Shown: positions 45,836 to 56,663 of the stretch, piece by piece
Numbering within the stretch: position 1 is the stretch's first letter
Layout of the letters: every line of letters starts with the position of its first letter
NCBI GenBank assembly: GCA_009668945.1
Contig: SBEH01000002.1
Coordinates: 124,001 to 188,000, forward strand
Direction: 5' to 3'
Source of the DNA: Actinomycetota bacterium
GTDB lineage: Bacteria > Actinomycetota > Coriobacteriia > Anaerosomatales > Anaerosomataceae
Length of the DNA stretch: 64,000 nucleotides
Position numbers and translations under genes: made by a program
Notes under the pieces: model-generated
Database searches by the model: none
Seen by the model: only the letters and a program-made list of their open reading frames with translations
Told to the model about the DNA's origin: nothing

Positions 45836-45844
45836 TGCTAGAAT
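45836..45844 (+). promoter_or_regulatory. Extended -10 promoter (TGC-TAGAAT)
   Basis: TG at 45836-45837, one base, then TAGAAT (45839-45844) is an extended -10. It would start transcription near 45851, upstream of the small secreted-type frame and the HD-GYP gene. Confidence 0.55.
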
Positions 45845-45885
45845 GGTCGTTGTCCTCACCTTCGGTGGTCGGGAGTCTTCCGCGA

Positions 45886-46032
45886 ATGCAGCCGCTCGCT
45901 CGGACAGCACGGGTTTCAGCCCTCGCTCTTGCGCTGCTCCTGGCGCTCGATGGAGTCCGGCCGACGGTCGAGAACGTCGAGAACGGCAGCTACCCGGTAG
46001 CGCGGGCCAACGGATTCGCTCCGCCGAGATGA
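45886..46032 (+). CDS. Short frame with signal segment and PstS-like tail (possible remnant)
   Basis: A 48-residue frame begins with a signal-like stretch (RTARVSALALALLLAL). It ends with DGVRPTVENVENGSYPVAR, which resembles the C-terminal region of PstS-type phosphate-binding proteins. The intervening binding domain is missing. GGGAGTC lies about 11 nt upstream of the ATG, and its TGA overlaps the ATG of the HD-GYP gene, so it could act as a leader for coupled translation. It may be a fused relic or a real small peptide. Confidence 0.45.
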   Translation: MQPLARTARVSALALALLLALDGVRPTVENVENGSYPVARANGFAPPR

Positions 46033-48611
46033 CACCCGCCCCAGACAGAGCCGCCTCGTTCTTCGGCAGGCACCTCCACAGCCAGATCGTGACGCCTCTT
46101 ATCGTGGTCCTCCTGCTTGTGGGCGTCGTCGCGACGGTGGTTGCGGTCGGACTCATCGGCGAGGTCATCAACGACTGGGTAGATCAAGTCGCCCGGTCGA
46201 CGGCAGCCGCGGTCATCGCACGAATCGAAGAGCAGGGCTCCGATGCGATCCGTGGGGCCAAGCTCGCGGCAGAGAGCGCCGGTCTCGAGTCGGCCGTGTT
46301 GGCTCGTGACCCGGGTGCGATGTCGGGTCAGCTCGTGCTGCTCAACCAGTCGCTCCGGGCTGACAACCTGATGCTGCTGGACGAGAACGGACGCGCACTG
46401 GCGTCGACCGGGCTGCTGCAGGTAATGCCGGGCGATGAGCCCTTGGCGGCGAGTGATCGCGAGTATCTGGCTCTGTCCATGAGCCACCCGATCCTCGCGA
46501 GCATCGGCGCCAGGTATACCGTGTCCGCGCTCGAACCTGTCAAGGGCCCGGAAGGAAAGACGTACACGCTGGTGCACTCGACGCAACTCGACGAAGAGTA
46601 CGTTGCCGAGTTGGCCGCTTCGTCCGGGGCCGCCCTTTCGCTGTTCGACGATTCAGGCAGGCTGGTGGCGTCGGCGGTTCCGGCGGGCCTGAGCCAGGCG
46701 CTTCAGACCGTCATCGAGGCCCGACCCGACGCCATCGACAGTGCCGTGCAAGACGCGGCGGAGGGCAGGCCGACGACTAGGCCGCTGCAGGCGGATGGCG
46801 AGGACTACCGCGCGATAGCCACTGAGGTCCACTTCGGCGATGATCCGACGAACAGCACCCTATACCTGGTGACCACGGTGGGCACCGCCGTCACCGAGCA
46901 GGCACGCCGTACCACGACGAACCTGATCGTCATGTGGTCGATGGCGGCCGTGGCCGTGCTGATCGGACTCGGCTGGTGGGTCGCCCGCAGCATCTCCGTG
47001 CCGCTGGGCACGCTGTCGGCGGGCGCGGCTCGCGTCGCCGAGGGGGACTTCGAGGCCAAGGTCCATATAGAGGGGCTGAACGAGGTCGCGGAGCTGGCCG
47101 ACAGCTTCAACCGCATGACCGATTCGCTGCGGGAGCGAAGCGAGTCACTAACGAAGAAGGTGCTCGAACTCGCGACGCTCTACGAGATGAGCCGCGCGCT
47201 CGGCGCGACTCTCGAGTTGGATACGCTGCTCGAGTCGGTACTGGAGTCCGCGCTGCGGATCTTCGACGTGGAGATGGGCTACGTCACTATGGTGGACCGG
47301 GAGACCGGCGCACTCGAAGTCCGGGCCTGGAGGGGGACCGATCTGTCCGACGCGGACGACTCGACGATCCGCAATTCGATGTCCGAGTGGGTGATACGGG
47401 AAGGCCGGCCGCTCATTTTCAATCCGCCACAGAACGGTGATGAGGCCGAGGCCAAGGGGCACGGCGATAGTGTCACCGGCGCACTTGCCGCTCTCTGCGT
47501 GCCTCTGCCCTCATCGGAAGGCACGATCGGTGCGATCACGGTCGGGAGCGCCAATGCCGGTCAGCGGTTCACGAGCGACGATGTCCGGTTGCTGGCCACC
47601 ATCGCCAACCACGTCACGATCGCCGTCGGGAACATATCGCTCTTCTCCAACGTGCAGGATGCGTATCTGGCGACCGTTCGCGCGCTAGCTGCAGCGGTGG
47701 ATGCGAAGGACCCCTACACACGCGGTCACTCGGACGGTGTCGCCGCTTATGCGCTCATGATCGGCGAAGCGATGCAGCTCTCCTCGGAGCAGATGATCGC
47801 ACTCGAGATGGCAGCCTACCTTCACGACATCGGCAAGATCGGCATCAGCGAGGACATCCTGCTCAAGCCCGGCAAGCTGACCGACACCGAGATGGGCCAG
47901 ATGCGGCATCACCCGCTCATCGGCGCGAACATCCTGAAGCCGGTCGCCTTCCCGTGGCCGATCGCTCCGATCGTGCGACACCATCACGAGCAGTTCGACG
48001 GCAACGGCTATCCGGCAGGACTCAAGACCGAGGAGATCCCGATGTTGGCCCGCGTGCTCACGGTCGCAGATTCGTTCGAGGCGATGGTGGCAGACCGGCC
48101 GTACCGGCGCGGACGTTCGCAGCAGGAGGCCATGCTCGAGCTGCGGCGATGCTCCGGCACTCAGTTCGACCCCAAGGTCGTCGATGCGTTCGTCGATATC
48201 CTTGAGTCAAGCGACATGGGGATCAGCGAGCTCTCGAACGACGACCTCGATCTCGGGACCGATGAGGTCCAGGCGGTCTACATCGCAGTTGCCGACGGGA
48301 TGCTCTCGTGCTTCCGGCGCCTCGGTGGTCCCCGGCTGGCAAACAACCTCGAGCGCACGGTGAACGACCGCCTGCACGAAGAGGGCGTACCGTTGCTGCT
48401 CTCCGCGGGCCGGCTCACGCAGACCAACGATTCGCTCGCTGACGAGGACCTCGTGCCGATGCTCAGCCGTGCACTTGCGCTTATGACAGAAGGCATCGAG
48501 CATGCATCTGGGACCGGGCTGGCCGAGCACTTCCTCGGCGAGGCGCTCGAGGGTCTGCCGGAGCGCATGCGAACGCAAGCCTTGCGGCTCGGCCTCGCCG
48601 CTTCGGCGTAG
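46029..48611 (+). CDS. Membrane HD-GYP phosphodiesterase with sensor, HAMP and GAF domains
   Basis: The 860-residue protein has TM1 (about 20-44), a large outer sensor of the double-Cache type (about 45-295), TM2 (about 300-322), HAMP (about 323-375), a GAF domain (about 395-545) and HD-GYP (about 550-715). The last has HDIGK, HHPLIGANIL and HHHEQFDGNGYP, all catalytic residues present. It should hydrolyse c-di-GMP. A C-terminal region of about 130 residues has no known match. The ATG at 46029 overlaps the stop of a small upstream frame; a longer start at 45843 is less likely. Confidence 0.92.
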   Translation: MTPAPDRAASFFGRHLHSQIVTPLIVVLLLVGVVATVVAVGLIGEVINDWVDQVARSTAAAVIARIEEQGSDAIRGAKLAAESAGLESAVLARDPGAMSGQLVLLNQSLRADNLMLLDENGRALASTGLLQVMPGDEPLAASDREYLALSMSHPILASIGARYTVSALEPVKGPEGKTYTLVHSTQLDEEYVAELAASSGAALSLFDDSGRLVASAVPAGLSQALQTVIEARPDAIDSAVQDAAEGRPTTRPLQADGEDYRAIATEVHFGDDPTNSTLYLVTTVGTAVTEQARRTTTNLIVMWSMAAVAVLIGLGWWVARSISVPLGTLSAGAARVAEGDFEAKVHIEGLNEVAELADSFNRMTDSLRERSESLTKKVLELATLYEMSRALGATLELDTLLESVLESALRIFDVEMGYVTMVDRETGALEVRAWRGTDLSDADDSTIRNSMSEWVIREGRPLIFNPPQNGDEAEAKGHGDSVTGALAALCVPLPSSEGTIGAITVGSANAGQRFTSDDVRLLATIANHVTIAVGNISLFSNVQDAYLATVRALAAAVDAKDPYTRGHSDGVAAYALMIGEAMQLSSEQMIALEMAAYLHDIGKIGISEDILLKPGKLTDTEMGQMRHHPLIGANILKPVAFPWPIAPIVRHHHEQFDGNGYPAGLKTEEIPMLARVLTVADSFEAMVADRPYRRGRSQQEAMLELRRCSGTQFDPKVVDAFVDILESSDMGISELSNDDLDLGTDEVQAVYIAVADGMLSCFRRLGGPRLANNLERTVNDRLHEEGVPLLLSAGRLTQTNDSLADEDLVPMLSRALALMTEGIEHASGTGLAEHFLGEALEGLPERMRTQALRLGLAASA

Positions 48612-51749: not shown

Positions 51750-53252
51750 GTGCGTCTCACGTCGATACGTGCACGCGTCGCCCTGGTGTCGGCGGTCTAC
51801 GCTGTCCTGCTGGTGGGCGGTGTCACTGTCGGCACGTATATGCTCGTCTCGACCGGCATGTCGCGAACTGCGGCGATTGCCTCCGCACGACTTGCGAGAT
51901 CGGGTCAGCTAGCAATCGACGGCGTGGTCGAGGACATGCTCGCCGAGGCCGATCGCCGTGGTCTGAGCGATGTCGAGACCGAAGCGTACGTGGCCCGCAC
52001 GCTGATCGGAGCGGCACCGAACCCGGTTTCCGCCGGACTCGCGAACGAGGCCATGTACAGCCTCTTCGTGTGGCAGGACGAGTCTGTCGGGCCGACGCTC
52101 GCATGGTCGGTAGGCGGGAGTGGTCCCGAGGAGTCAGCCGCCGAGAGGCTAGAGGCGGCGGAGCAGGGCAGGATGGTCCAGCGGACGAGCAAGCTGCGGC
52201 CGCTGATCACGAGCATGCTGTTCCGTGCCGATCTCGGGCGCTACGTCACAGATATCCCGGTGGAGATCCCCGGCGTGGCCAGGGCGGTGCTCGAGGTCGA
52301 CTATTCGGCCACGGAGGAGGAGGCGACGCTCGATTCCACACGCTTGCCGATGACCGCGGTCGCGCTCGTGTCGCTGGTAATGGCGCTGCTGATCGCGAGC
52401 ATGACGACCCGCTGGACCCTATCGCTCGTCGGCGACCTGCGGCGAACCGCGGACTCAGTCGATATCGGACGTCTGGACGTGCGACTGCCGGAGGAAGGGA
52501 AAACCGAGGTCGCAGAGCTCGCGCGGTCCCTCAACCGCCTGATCGGCAATCTGCAGCGCCGCAATGAGGCACAAGCCCGGTTCATCGCCGACGCTTCTCA
52601 CGAGTTGGCTACCCCGGTGGCGGGTATCCGCGGGTACGTCAACATCCTGCGGGCATGGGGCGCCGAGGACCCGGCGCTGCGCGAGGAAGCCGTGAGCGCG
52701 ATCGACCGCGAATCGCGACGGATGGCCCGGCTCTGCAGCGACCTGCTCTCCGTGATACGCAATGAGGAGCTCGTCGAGTACCGGCAAATCCGCTACGACA
52801 TTAATGCCACGTGTCGAGAGGTGGTCGCCAACGCTGCCACGCGCTACTTCGACAAGCACCTGGACTACTGCGGTCCGGAGGAGGGCCCGCTGTGGCTGCA
52901 CGGTGATCCGGACCGCATCGAAGAGGCGCTCGGCATCCTGGTCGACAACGCCTGCAAGTACACTCCGAGTGGAGGCAAGGTCTCCGTCACGAGCAGACGG
53001 TACCGCGACCGGATCGTGGTCGATGTCACGGACACGGGCGAGGGCATCCCCGAGGACGATCTGCCAAGCATCTTCGAGCGGTTCTACCGCAGCGATACCT
53101 CGCGGTCGAAGGAGACGGGCGGCTTCGGCCTGGGTCTGGCCATCGCGCAGCACATCGTCGACGCGAGTGGCGGCGAGATCTCGGTGCAGAGCAAGATCGG
53201 CGAAGGAACGACGTTCTCAGTCAGCCTGCCGAGACAGAGGAGCCGGTCGTGA
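51750..53252 (+). CDS. Sensor histidine kinase (HAMP-type)
   Basis: The 500-residue kinase has TM1 (about 9-30), an outer sensor of about 160 residues, TM2 (about 197-218), a HAMP region, a DHp helix with phospho-acceptor His in ADASHELATPVAGI, and an ATPase domain (VDNACKYTPSG, DTGEGIP, FGLGLAIAQHI). It partners the preceding regulator. The GTG at 51750 is 8 nt after that gene. Its 3' end overlaps the QueT-like gene by 4 nt. The stimulus is unknown. Confidence 0.94.
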   Translation: MRLTSIRARVALVSAVYAVLLVGGVTVGTYMLVSTGMSRTAAIASARLARSGQLAIDGVVEDMLAEADRRGLSDVETEAYVARTLIGAAPNPVSAGLANEAMYSLFVWQDESVGPTLAWSVGGSGPEESAAERLEAAEQGRMVQRTSKLRPLITSMLFRADLGRYVTDIPVEIPGVARAVLEVDYSATEEEATLDSTRLPMTAVALVSLVMALLIASMTTRWTLSLVGDLRRTADSVDIGRLDVRLPEEGKTEVAELARSLNRLIGNLQRRNEAQARFIADASHELATPVAGIRGYVNILRAWGAEDPALREEAVSAIDRESRRMARLCSDLLSVIRNEELVEYRQIRYDINATCREVVANAATRYFDKHLDYCGPEEGPLWLHGDPDRIEEALGILVDNACKYTPSGGKVSVTSRRYRDRIVVDVTDTGEGIPEDDLPSIFERFYRSDTSRSKETGGFGLGLAIAQHIVDASGGEISVQSKIGEGTTFSVSLPRQRSRS

Positions 53253-53824
53253 GTGGGCATGCACGGACGATCGCCCATGCAGGCGTGATTGCCGCGACGT
53301 ATGCCGCGCTCACCCTGGTAGTGATACAGAGCCCGCTTGGCTACGGTCCGGTGCAGTTCCGGCTCTCCGAGGCCCTAACGGTGGTCGCATGCCTCACGCC
53401 GGCAGCGATTCCCGGACTCTGGATCGGAGCGGTCGTGGCCAACGCTTTCATGCTCACGCAGTTCGGCGCGCTCGGCCTCCTCGATGTGGTCTTCGGCGCC
53501 GGAGCGACGCTCATCGGTGCCTGGTGGACCTGGCGTCATCACGACCGCCCGGTCGTGGCTCTGGCCGGTCCGGTGCTGGCAAACGCGCTTGTCGTGCCGG
53601 CCTATCTGCCGCTGATGCTGACCGGCGCCACCGGCCTGGACTTCTACCGACTGGCTGTCTTCGGCTTGGATATGTCCGGGTCGTGGTGGAGCATGTACCT
53701 GTTCGGGTTCGTTGCCGTGGGGTTGGGTCAGGCAGTCGTGGTATACGGGCTCGGATTGCCCCTGCTGGGCTTGCTGAAGAGGCTGGGCGTGGGCGGGGCG
53801 TTGACGGAACCGGATCAAGGGTAG
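53249..53824 (+). CDS. QueT-like membrane transporter
   Basis: The 191-residue protein has about six TMs and a QueT-type sequence (YGPVQFRLSEALTVVACLTPAAIPGLWIGAVVANAF). QueT proteins are ECF S-components proposed to import queuosine precursors. No energising ECF module lies nearby, so it would share one encoded elsewhere. The GTG overlaps the kinase stop and the hydrogenase-like gene follows 1 nt later. Confidence 0.85.
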   Translation: MSGHARTIAHAGVIAATYAALTLVVIQSPLGYGPVQFRLSEALTVVACLTPAAIPGLWIGAVVANAFMLTQFGALGLLDVVFGAGATLIGAWWTWRHHDRPVVALAGPVLANALVVPAYLPLMLTGATGLDFYRLAVFGLDMSGSWWSMYLFGFVAVGLGQAVVVYGLGLPLLGLLKRLGVGGALTEPDQG

Positions 53825-53825
53825 G

Positions 53826-55640
53826 GTGGGCGTATTGGAGCAGATCTCCCTGGACGTCGCTCCTCTCATCACGCATCCGAAAGAGACGTGCAACGAGTGC
53901 TGGGGGTGCGTGCGCGCGTGTCCGGTGAGAGCGATCCGGGTCGTCGCAGGTCATTCCGAGGTCGTGCAGGACAAGTGCGTCGCATGCGGCCTGTGCGTGA
54001 CCGAGTGTGGCAGGGACGGCCACGTGGTTCGAGACGACACCCCCGCCGTACGCGAGATCCTGCGCTCGCGGCGTCCCGTGGTGGCGCTGCTCGCCAGCGA
54101 GTTCATTGCGGCGCTCTACCCGATGACCGTCTCGCAGATCGAGCGCGGACTGGAGATGCTCGGCTTCGCGGCGATAGAGACGACGCTCCTCGGAGAGGAG
54201 CTGGTCGCCGAGGCGTACGAGAAGCTTCATCTCCGGGACGACATCCTGCTCAGCATGCGCTCGACGTGCCCGGTGGCGGTGAACTTCGTGCGCAAGTACT
54301 TCCCGTCGCTCGTTCCGGCGCTTGCGCCCATCGTGCCGCCGTACATCGCGCAAGCGAAGCTGATTCGAGAGGTTTACGCGGAAGACGTCGCGATCGTATA
54401 CGTGAGTCCTTGCTTCGCGCGCAAGGACGAGTTCCGAGATCCGCAATTCGGCGGTGCGGTAAACGTCGCGATCGACTTCACCGAACTCAAGCGCATGTTC
54501 GATGAAGGCGCCGACACGAACCAGGTGCATCGGTCGGCGGTTCGGAACTCCCGTCCGAGCGCACTGAAGGAGATATCGCTCACGGACGGCTTTCCGAGGC
54601 AGACGCTTGTGAAGCGCAATCTCACCGACGTTTCGGTAGAAGTGGCTCGCGGCCTGGATGAAGTGGACCGGTTGCTGCGGGCGCTGATGGCGGGCGAGGC
54701 GGGTCCGTCGATCATCGACATGCTCAACTGCGAGGGTTGCCTCGACGGCCCGGCGGTCAGTTCCGGTCTGTCGGTGTTCGCGAAGCGCAGCATCGAGGCG
54801 TCGGCGCGAGAGCACCCCGGGACGACGCACGTCAGCACGCGCGCCATGCTGGGTGTGCTGCCGTCGATCGACAGCATCCGGTCGTTCAACGCCGCTCCGG
54901 TATACACCCCTACTCCCACTGACGCTCAGATCGACGAGATACTGGAGTCCGGACGCCTTACGCGCCAGACGGCCCCGGACTGCGGAGCGTGCGGTTGGAC
55001 GACCTGCGTAGAGCACGCTGCAGCTGTCTTCAACGCGGAGTCCTCGTGGGACCTGTGCCTTCCGCTCCAGCGGGCGCTGTTCGAGGAGCAGGCGTCGGTG
55101 CTGGACGCCCACCGCGATGCTCTGGCCGAATCCCGCACGCTCGACCCGGGCACGGGCCTGTGGAACAAGCGCACGTTCGCCGACCGGCTGGACCTGGAAC
55201 TCTCGCGCCACCTCCGCTACGGCTCATCGCTGGCCGTCGTCCTCCTCGACATCGACGGTTTCGGGGCGGTCAACGACGTGGCCGGCCGGGAAGGCGGCGA
55301 TCTAGCGCTCCAGCTCGTCGCCGAGCGGATCTCGACCTCGCTGCGCGCGACGGACTTCCCGGCGAGATGGACGGGCGACCAGTTCGCGGTGATCCTGCCA
55401 GGCATCGGAAAGACAGCGGCTTTCGCAGCGGCCGAGAAGCTTAGGGAGGTCGTGGGCGGTGCGGCCTACGAGATCGTGGCTGGCGGGTATACAGGGAGTG
55501 TCAGCCTGACCGCCTCGGTCGGCGTCTCGGCGGCGTCGCAGGCCATCGCCGATGCGCACAGCCTTCTCGAAGCGGCGGATGCGGCGCTGCATGAGGCGAT
55601 GAGCACCGGGAGGAACAGAGTGCATCTGGCCCCCGGGTAG
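53826..55640 (+). CDS. Ferredoxin-[FeFe]-hydrogenase-like-GGDEF fusion sensor
   Basis: A 604-residue soluble protein with five parts. There is an N-terminal 2x[4Fe-4S] ferredoxin (Cys 22, 25, 28, 32; 51, 54, 57, 61). An [FeFe]-hydrogenase H-cluster domain (about 75-365) follows with ligands Cys 148 (STCP), Cys 196 (SPCFARKDEF), Cys 302 and Cys 305 (NCEGC). Next is a PF04060-type [4Fe-4S] site (Cys 386, 389, 394, 411). A short coil leads to a GGDEF domain (about 441-600). Thr replaces the proton-relay Cys before Cys 148, as expected for a sensor rather than an efficient catalyst. The signature is TGDQF at 516-520; an RATD I-site (507-510) precedes it. It may couple H2 or ferredoxin redox state to c-di-GMP. 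Catalysis is unproven. Confidence 0.88.
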   Translation: MGVLEQISLDVAPLITHPKETCNECWGCVRACPVRAIRVVAGHSEVVQDKCVACGLCVTECGRDGHVVRDDTPAVREILRSRRPVVALLASEFIAALYPMTVSQIERGLEMLGFAAIETTLLGEELVAEAYEKLHLRDDILLSMRSTCPVAVNFVRKYFPSLVPALAPIVPPYIAQAKLIREVYAEDVAIVYVSPCFARKDEFRDPQFGGAVNVAIDFTELKRMFDEGADTNQVHRSAVRNSRPSALKEISLTDGFPRQTLVKRNLTDVSVEVARGLDEVDRLLRALMAGEAGPSIIDMLNCEGCLDGPAVSSGLSVFAKRSIEASAREHPGTTHVSTRAMLGVLPSIDSIRSFNAAPVYTPTPTDAQIDEILESGRLTRQTAPDCGACGWTTCVEHAAAVFNAESSWDLCLPLQRALFEEQASVLDAHRDALAESRTLDPGTGLWNKRTFADRLDLELSRHLRYGSSLAVVLLDIDGFGAVNDVAGREGGDLALQLVAERISTSLRATDFPARWTGDQFAVILPGIGKTAAFAAAEKLREVVGGAAYEIVAGGYTGSVSLTASVGVSAASQAIADAHSLLEAADAALHEAMSTGRNRVHLAPG

Positions 55641-55655: not shown

Positions 55656-56663
55656 ATGCACGAAGCGCTTCTCTCGGAGCGGGACGGGGACCGGATCCAC
55701 TGCCTCGTCTGCCCGAACGACTGCCGCATCGCCGAGGGCGCGCGCGGCATCTGCGGAGTGCGGGAGAACCGCGGTGGCGTGCTGGATGCCATGACCTACG
55801 GGCTGGTCTCGTCAGTCGCGGTCGACCCGATCGAGAAGAAGCCGGTGTTTCACTTCCGCCCCGGGACGAGCGCGCTTTCACTCGGCAGTGTCGGGTGCTC
55901 CATGCGCTGCGGCCACTGCCAGAACTGGCAGATCAGTCGTGCACGGCCGGATGAGGACGCCGCGTTGGACCGGCTCGCGCCCGGCGAGGTAGTGGCTTTG
56001 GCCGTCGAGTACCGGTGCCAGGGCGTCGCGTTCACCTACAACGAACCGGTGATATGGATCGAGTACGTTCTGGACGCCGCCCGGGCCAGCAAGGGCGCGG
56101 GGCTGTATACCGTGATGGTGACCAACGGCTACATCACCGCCGCAGGGCTCGACCTGATCGGGCCGCACATCGACATCTGGCGAGTGGACGTCAAGGGATA
56201 CAACGATGCCACGTACCGAGAACTCTGCAAGGTGCGGTCGCTGGCCCCGATCCTGGACGCGGCCGAACGTGCGAAAGTGGTTTGGGGGATGCACGTCGAG
56301 GTCGTGACCAACGTGATCCCGACGGTCAACGACGATGCCGGGACGCTCCGGGGCATCGCGCGCTGGATACGGACGTCGCTTGGCGAGGATACGCCCTGGC
56401 ACGTGACTAGGTTCTTCCCGTACCTCGAACTAGCTCACCTGCCCCCGACGCCGCTCGAAACCATCGAGAAGGCGCGACGGATCGGGACGGAAGAGGGGCT
56501 GCACTTCGTCTTCCCCGGTAACGTTCCCGGTACGGCCGAGGAGGATACCGTCTGTCCGATGTGCGGGGCCGCCGCGATCAGACGGGACGGCTACCGCGTG
56601 ATCGAGAACCGGGTGCGCGATGGTGCGTGCGCCAGGTGCAACACCCCGTTAGGGATCCGATGA
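55656..56663 (+). CDS. amrS: AmrS-like radical SAM enzyme
   Basis: The 335-residue protein fits the AmmeMemoRadiSam-associated radical SAM family. It has N-terminal Cys pairs (CLVCPNDCRIAEGARGICGVR), a radical SAM cluster motif CSMRCGHCQNWQIS (CxxxCxxC), FTYNEPVIWIEY and a C-terminal metal-binding tail (CPMCGAAAIRR...GACARCNTPLG). The substrate is unknown in the family. The usual partners MEMO1 and AMMECR1 are not in the window. The gene follows the hydrogenase-like gene by 15 nt, with AGGAGG upstream. Confidence 0.92.
   Translation: MHEALLSERDGDRIHCLVCPNDCRIAEGARGICGVRENRGGVLDAMTYGLVSSVAVDPIEKKPVFHFRPGTSALSLGSVGCSMRCGHCQNWQISRARPDEDAALDRLAPGEVVALAVEYRCQGVAFTYNEPVIWIEYVLDAARASKGAGLYTVMVTNGYITAAGLDLIGPHIDIWRVDVKGYNDATYRELCKVRSLAPILDAAERAKVVWGMHVEVVTNVIPTVNDDAGTLRGIARWIRTSLGEDTPWHVTRFFPYLELAHLPPTPLETIEKARRIGTEEGLHFVFPGNVPGTAEEDTVCPMCGAAAIRRDGYRVIENRVRDGACARCNTPLGIR

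Follow-up and report, generated by a model that had tools for sequence, protein, structure and literature searches.

The window analysed here, a stretch of 64,000 nucleotides from a bacterium of the order Anaerosomatales (former OPB41) in the Coriobacteriia, contains a gene in which hydrogenase-like Fe-S domains are joined to a GGDEF domain, and it raises the question of what such a protein senses and whether it turns the signal into c-di-GMP. The original prediction favoured signalling over turnover, with H2 or the redox state of ferredoxin as the input and c-di-GMP synthesis as the output. The signalling role is supported by the analysis that follows. The reading we prefer, at a probability of roughly 0.55, is that of an H-cluster-free redox or Fe-S sensor with four [4Fe-4S] clusters. 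In most families of the order it would control a cyclase, and in the window's own family it is a probable c-di-GMP receptor.

The open reading frame is uninterrupted, and its GTG start directly follows the stop codon of a QueT gene. A chance open reading frame or a frameshift artefact was ruled out by orthologues with 47-74% identity and 57 complete sequences. The predicted arrangement of ferredoxin, [FeFe]-hydrogenase H-domain, Cx2Cx4Cx16C cluster and GGDEF domain in one chain was confirmed by Pfam matches and by fold superposition. In an AlphaFold2 model built from 36 family members (mean pLDDT 86), residues 10-360 align structurally with CpI hydrogenase (Z 33; about 335 residues, rmsd 3.2 Å) and residues 432-604 with PleD (Z 27.7; 168 residues, rmsd 1.6 Å). 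The Pfam dicluster ferredoxin spans residues 19-63 approximately. The match to FeS (PF04060), at residues 385-413, scores 21.6 bits, just below the curated 23, and its motif spacing is exactly Cx2Cx4Cx16C. No PAS domain was found in the Pfam scan of the protein, and the GGDEF domain comes directly after the FeS part.

53826..55640, + strand: complete gene of the H-domain–GGDEF fusion, 604 aa; orthologues in 62 of 68 genomes of the order
53889..54008, + strand: two [4Fe-4S] ferredoxin motifs, C22, C25, C28, C32 and C51, C54, C57, C61 (Pfam; 8/8 Cys invariant, n = 57 sequences)
54078..54752, + strand: H-domain, Fe_hyd_lg_C (PF02906), residues 85-309 (Pfam, 113 bits, E 2e-32; CpI fold match)
54981..55058, + strand: Cx2Cx4Cx16C cluster of PF04060 type, as in TmHydS and TamHydS (Pfam, alignment; motif per PMC8163306)
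55059..55139, + strand: signalling helix, residues 412-438, from the FeS domain to the GGDEF domain (secondary structure of the AlphaFold2 model)
55140..55619, + strand: GGDEF domain, residues 439-598 (Pfam, 117 bits; PleD fold match)

Distribution, neighbours and relatives

53249..53824, + strand: QueT-family transporter, immediately upstream, a conserved neighbour (Pfam QueT; synteny)
55656..56663, + strand: AmmeMemoRadiSam-system radical SAM (rSAM) enzyme, immediately downstream, a conserved neighbour (TIGR04337, 316 bits, cut-off 220; synteny)

A search for the architecture across genomes, proposed with the original prediction, recovered the fusion in 62 of the 68 genomes of the order and a separate family in other Coriobacteriia. 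Those 62 genomes have exactly one PF02906 match each, the other six have none, and no genome has two; in the window's host (1.92 Mb, 99.3% complete) the fusion is the sole PF02906 protein. A class-wide search placed orthologues of 47-74% identity in almost every genome of the order and none of that identity outside it. The gene order QueT–fusion–rSAM is kept in nearly all of 49 loci of the order. Being near-universal, single-copy and syntenic, the fusion is a vertically kept core gene and no recent oddity. The rSAM gene of the window has no obvious AMMECR1 or Memo partner adjoining it, and several relatives have, directly after the rSAM gene, a DsbA-like gene that lacks the CxxC.

The order's fusion sequences form a clade with 100/100 support, and the nearest outside relatives in the tree are group C3 sequences, at a branch support of only 87/82 and 27-28% identity. 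Group C3 is phosphatase-linked and putatively sensory according to HydDB, and its clostridial members (L151-L154) have the same order of ferredoxin, H-domain and Cx2Cx4Cx16C cluster; they differ in carrying a C-terminal PAS-like region with a phosphatase-like gene next door, a C-x3-C third motif, Lys in the second motif and HydF in their genomes, where the fusion has a GGDEF domain, C-x2-C, Arg and no HydE or HydF maturases. More generally, the fusion shares its Fe-S and H-domain modules with group C [FeFe] hydrogenases, without their PAS domain plus kinase, chemotaxis or phosphatase output. When the FeS and GGDEF half was used as a profile against 46 clostridial genomes, the strongest partial matches, on inspection, lacked the cluster motif.

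The coupling of an [FeFe] hydrogenase to a GGDEF domain, described as less familiar in the original prediction, has no class in HydDB, where [FeFe] group C is histidine-kinase, chemotactic or phosphatase-linked and a cyclase-linked class exists only for [NiFe] 2c (PMC5037454). Full-text literature searches, whose coverage leaves out most subscription papers, likewise returned no description of an [FeFe] hydrogenase with a GGDEF domain or diguanylate cyclase.

The conserved locus suggests a serious rival to a signalling role, namely that the Fe-S half supplies electrons or clusters to the adjoining rSAM enzyme, a Nar1-like service to AmrS in which the GGDEF domain only regulates or dimerises. 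The strict gene order and the 16 invariant cluster Cys are consistent with it, and Nar1/IOP1 (CIAO3) is a precedent for an H-domain that holds Fe-S without a diiron site in a maturase-free host (PMC12621388). Nar1/IOP1 is a eukaryotic Fe-S assembly factor with no signalling domain, and diiron absence is deduced for the fusion. On the other side, the adjacency may reflect nothing but an old operon, and the intact cyclase motifs of other families of the order imply a signalling output. We consider the donor role unlikely, and prefer the sensor reading.

The GGDEF domain

55263..55265, + strand: A-site change, Gly at PleD K332 (mapping on PleD)
55344..55355, + strand: intact I-site RxxD, R507-A-T-D510 (both residues kept in 25/25 of the window's family and in all other families)
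55371..55385, + strand: degenerate A-site TGDQF (translation, mapping on PleD, which has GGEEF)
55599..55601, + strand: A-site change, Met at PleD K442 (mapping on PleD)

The window's family (n = 25, the window protein and 24 relatives) has lost K332, E371 and K442 (PleD numbering) in 25/25 members and G368 in 22/25, three keeping the Gly, while D327, D344, R359, D362, R366, the third-position Asp and F372 are kept in 25/25. Elsewhere in the order, 33 of 35 sequences have an intact RYGGDEF-type motif. Since the window's family branches, as a clade with 100/100 support, from within these intact-GGDEF families, the loss of the A-site is derived. An independent A-site degeneration, to AGGEF, was seen in another family of the order, at two loci of one genus (L052 in G141 and L055 in G073), again with the I-site RxxD kept.

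With the A-site degenerate both here and in 25/25 members of the family, the predicted c-di-GMP synthesis is unlikely, judging from sequence. The RxxD motif outlasted the drift of the A-site, and the family gained conserved positions of its own (a GYT motif); together these argue against simple decay. With the A-site lost and the I-site kept, reading c-di-GMP is the most likely present function of the domain. We regard the window protein as a probable c-di-GMP receptor, on the pattern of PopA and SgmT, which likewise combine a degenerate A-site with an intact RxxD (PMC3509222); in SgmT the K442/R446 phosphate contacts are lost too. The partners of the domain in PopA and SgmT are a receiver and a kinase, as opposed to the Fe-S H-domain of the fusion, and the fusion differs also at the secondary I-site Arg (PleD R390), which is Lys throughout the window's family and makes the affinity of the I-site uncertain. 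A ligand would probably be made by the host, since other GGDEF proteins of the window's genome have an intact GG[DE]EF. The nearby HD-GYP gene, which had been proposed to supply the opposing activity, is present about 5 kb upstream (45843-48611), but an opposing role loses its basis if the fusion, as appears, makes no c-di-GMP.

The Lys at PleD R390 also speaks for a rival proposal, that in this family the GGDEF domain takes up GTP or no ligand at all and merely dimerises an Fe-S sensor, its I-site being structural. The guanine contacts N335 and D344 are mostly kept, so that GTP binding without catalysis is possible. The proposal does not sit easily with an RxxD conserved in 25/25 members beside drifting A-site positions, and we think it improbable compared with a c-di-GMP receptor.

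The H-domain and its maturases

54258..54272, + strand: L1 motif R-S-T-C148-P, with Thr in place of the proton-relay Cys (alignment; Thr in 55/57, Ser in 2/57)
54408..54431, + strand: L2 motif P-C196-F-A-R199-K-D-E, with Arg for the Lys of all other groups examined (alignment; R 57/57)
54729..54740, + strand: L3 motif C302-E-G-C305, C-x2-C in place of C-x3-C (alignment; 57/57 C-x2-C)

The original prediction was right that Thr replaces the proton-relay Cys and that the third motif reads CEGC; it overlooked that CEGC falls one residue short of the H-cluster motif and that the GGDEF motif reads TGDQF. The shortened L3 is found in 57/57 complete sequences (CEGC in 40, CDGC in 11, CESC in 4, CDAC in 1 and CDSC in 1), against C-x3-C in the aligned group A, B, C3 and D-like sequences and in the second fusion family of other Coriobacteriia. 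Three residues beyond the L2 Cys, 57/57 sequences have Arg, where each of the remaining groups examined has Lys. In CpI this Lys (K358) contacts a cyanide ligand of the diiron site. The four cubane-ligand Cys positions of L1, L2 and L3 are invariant in the order, as are all 16 cluster Cys across the 57 sequences, from which four [4Fe-4S] clusters are predicted.

Profile searches found neither HydE nor HydF in 30 genomes of the order, the window's own among them, and were positive in control genomes. HydF was present for all seven C-x3-C relatives, in 3/3 Coriobacteriia outside the order and in 4/4 Clostridia carrying the nearest outside homologues, and HydE in the same 3/3 Coriobacteriia. For HydG (TIGR03955) there was no match above the cut-off, yet the model also missed HydG in HydE/F-positive controls, and its absence was therefore left out of the argument. 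Three genomes (G194, G240 and G292) encode HydE, HydF and a group A hydrogenase, but TIGR03955 recognised no HydG in them and its weak matches fell at the HydE gene; in G194 no HydG was found within about 6 kb of HydF. In two further Coriobacteriia genomes (G195 and G241), canonical-looking H-domain proteins with TSCCP...CPGGC (L070 and L073) occur where HydE and HydF were not found, and are either unmatured H-domain proteins or a sign of a maturation gap. Absence of maturases alone is thus not specific. It is also conceivable that the C-x2-C loop still accommodates an atypical cofactor supplied by maturases of an unknown kind.

The C-x2-C motif, the change of Lys to Arg and the lack of HydE and HydF in the order leave H2 sensing at an H-cluster unsupported on sequence grounds, and of the two inputs originally proposed H2 loses its support, while the ferredoxin or redox alternative survives. 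A genuine sensory [FeFe] hydrogenase, with H2 detected at its H-cluster and c-di-GMP made by its fused GGDEF domain, would account for the H-domain fold, for the Cys at four ligand positions and for an FeS domain the same as in TmHydS and TamHydS. It would have to do so with C-x2-C and Arg in 57/57 sequences, with neither maturase in 30 genomes, with no further [FeFe] hydrogenase in any genome of the order and with the A-site lost in the window's family, and we judge it very unlikely. TamHydS (group D) and TmHydS (group C) share with the fusion both the C-terminal Cx2Cx4Cx16C cluster and the lost proton-relay Cys; they differ in binding an active H-cluster in vitro (PMC8163306) and in having no GGDEF domain. 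Described members of the Anaerosomatales are reported as users of [NiFe] hydrogenase (PMC9686372), and the window's genome encodes [NiFe] large-subunit genes. One locus of that genome outside the window (L188, G000:C11:162162-163655) is a full-length [NiFe] large subunit with one in-frame TGA, and its C-terminal motif DP-TGA-IGCAVH fits a selenocysteine [NiFeSe] hydrogenase.

What also speaks for an H2 sensor is the second H-domain–FeS–GGDEF family, found in one Coriobacteriia genus outside the order (L072, L157, L158, L160 and L162). It has the same domain order as the Anaerosomatales fusion and differs in keeping C-x3-C (CQEGC), the L2 Lys and an intact TGGDEF, with no I-site RxxD; both genomes tested (G194 and G240) encode HydE, HydF and a group A hydrogenase. 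The best tree separates the two fusions, and a single origin was not rejected (p-AU 0.187). By sequence, this family (L160 type) is a better candidate than the window protein for an H2-to-c-di-GMP sensor.

Also very unlikely is that the GGDEF domain of the fusion is still an active cyclase under [4Fe-4S] redox control alone: D327, D344 and the Asp at the third position are still there, and a first-position change can be tolerated, as in VCA0965 with its active AGDEF, but the position-4 Glu is lost, the change from AGDEF to AGDAF inactivated VCA0965 (PMC3974145), and K332 and K442 are lost as well in all 25/25.

Proposed mechanism and significance

The H-cluster-free sensor would descend from group-C-like sensory [FeFe] hydrogenases and would no longer carry the H-cluster. 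Its 16 Cys would bind four [4Fe-4S] clusters, two in the ferredoxin, one at the former [4Fe-4S]H site and one in the Cx2Cx4Cx16C domain, with the diiron subsite absent from the H-domain. The redox state or occupancy of the clusters may alter the signalling helix and through it the GGDEF dimer at the C-terminus. Where the cyclase is intact, as in most families of the order, the clusters would thereby switch its product-inhibited diguanylate cyclase activity. The ancestor of the window's family lost the cyclase A-site, in a single event, and retained the c-di-GMP-binding I-site, so that here the GGDEF domain, like that of PopA or SgmT, would read c-di-GMP and integrate it with redox state. The architecture, the lost motifs, the Cys invariance, the missing HydE and HydF, the synteny and the derived position of the family are observed; we infer the cluster content, the redox sensing, the c-di-GMP binding and any effect on the functions of QueT and AmrS. 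The wider picture, of an order-wide set of H-cluster-free Fe-S sensors wired to c-di-GMP, writers in most families and readers in one, gated by redox or Fe-S state and linked to QueT and the AmmeMemoRadiSam system, is offered tentatively, at somewhat less than even odds.

An Fe-S input to c-di-GMP signalling was not described in the literature searched. Proteins with an H-domain are routinely annotated as [FeFe] hydrogenases, and this fusion family is a clear counter-case; its signature of C-x2-C in L3 and Arg in L2 would help to weed out false hydrogenase calls. The family also presents a natural conversion of a GGDEF domain from writer to reader that is testable among closely related proteins. 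In an order that includes H2-using subsurface bacteria, the hydrogenase fold has been kept and its hydrogen chemistry apparently discarded.
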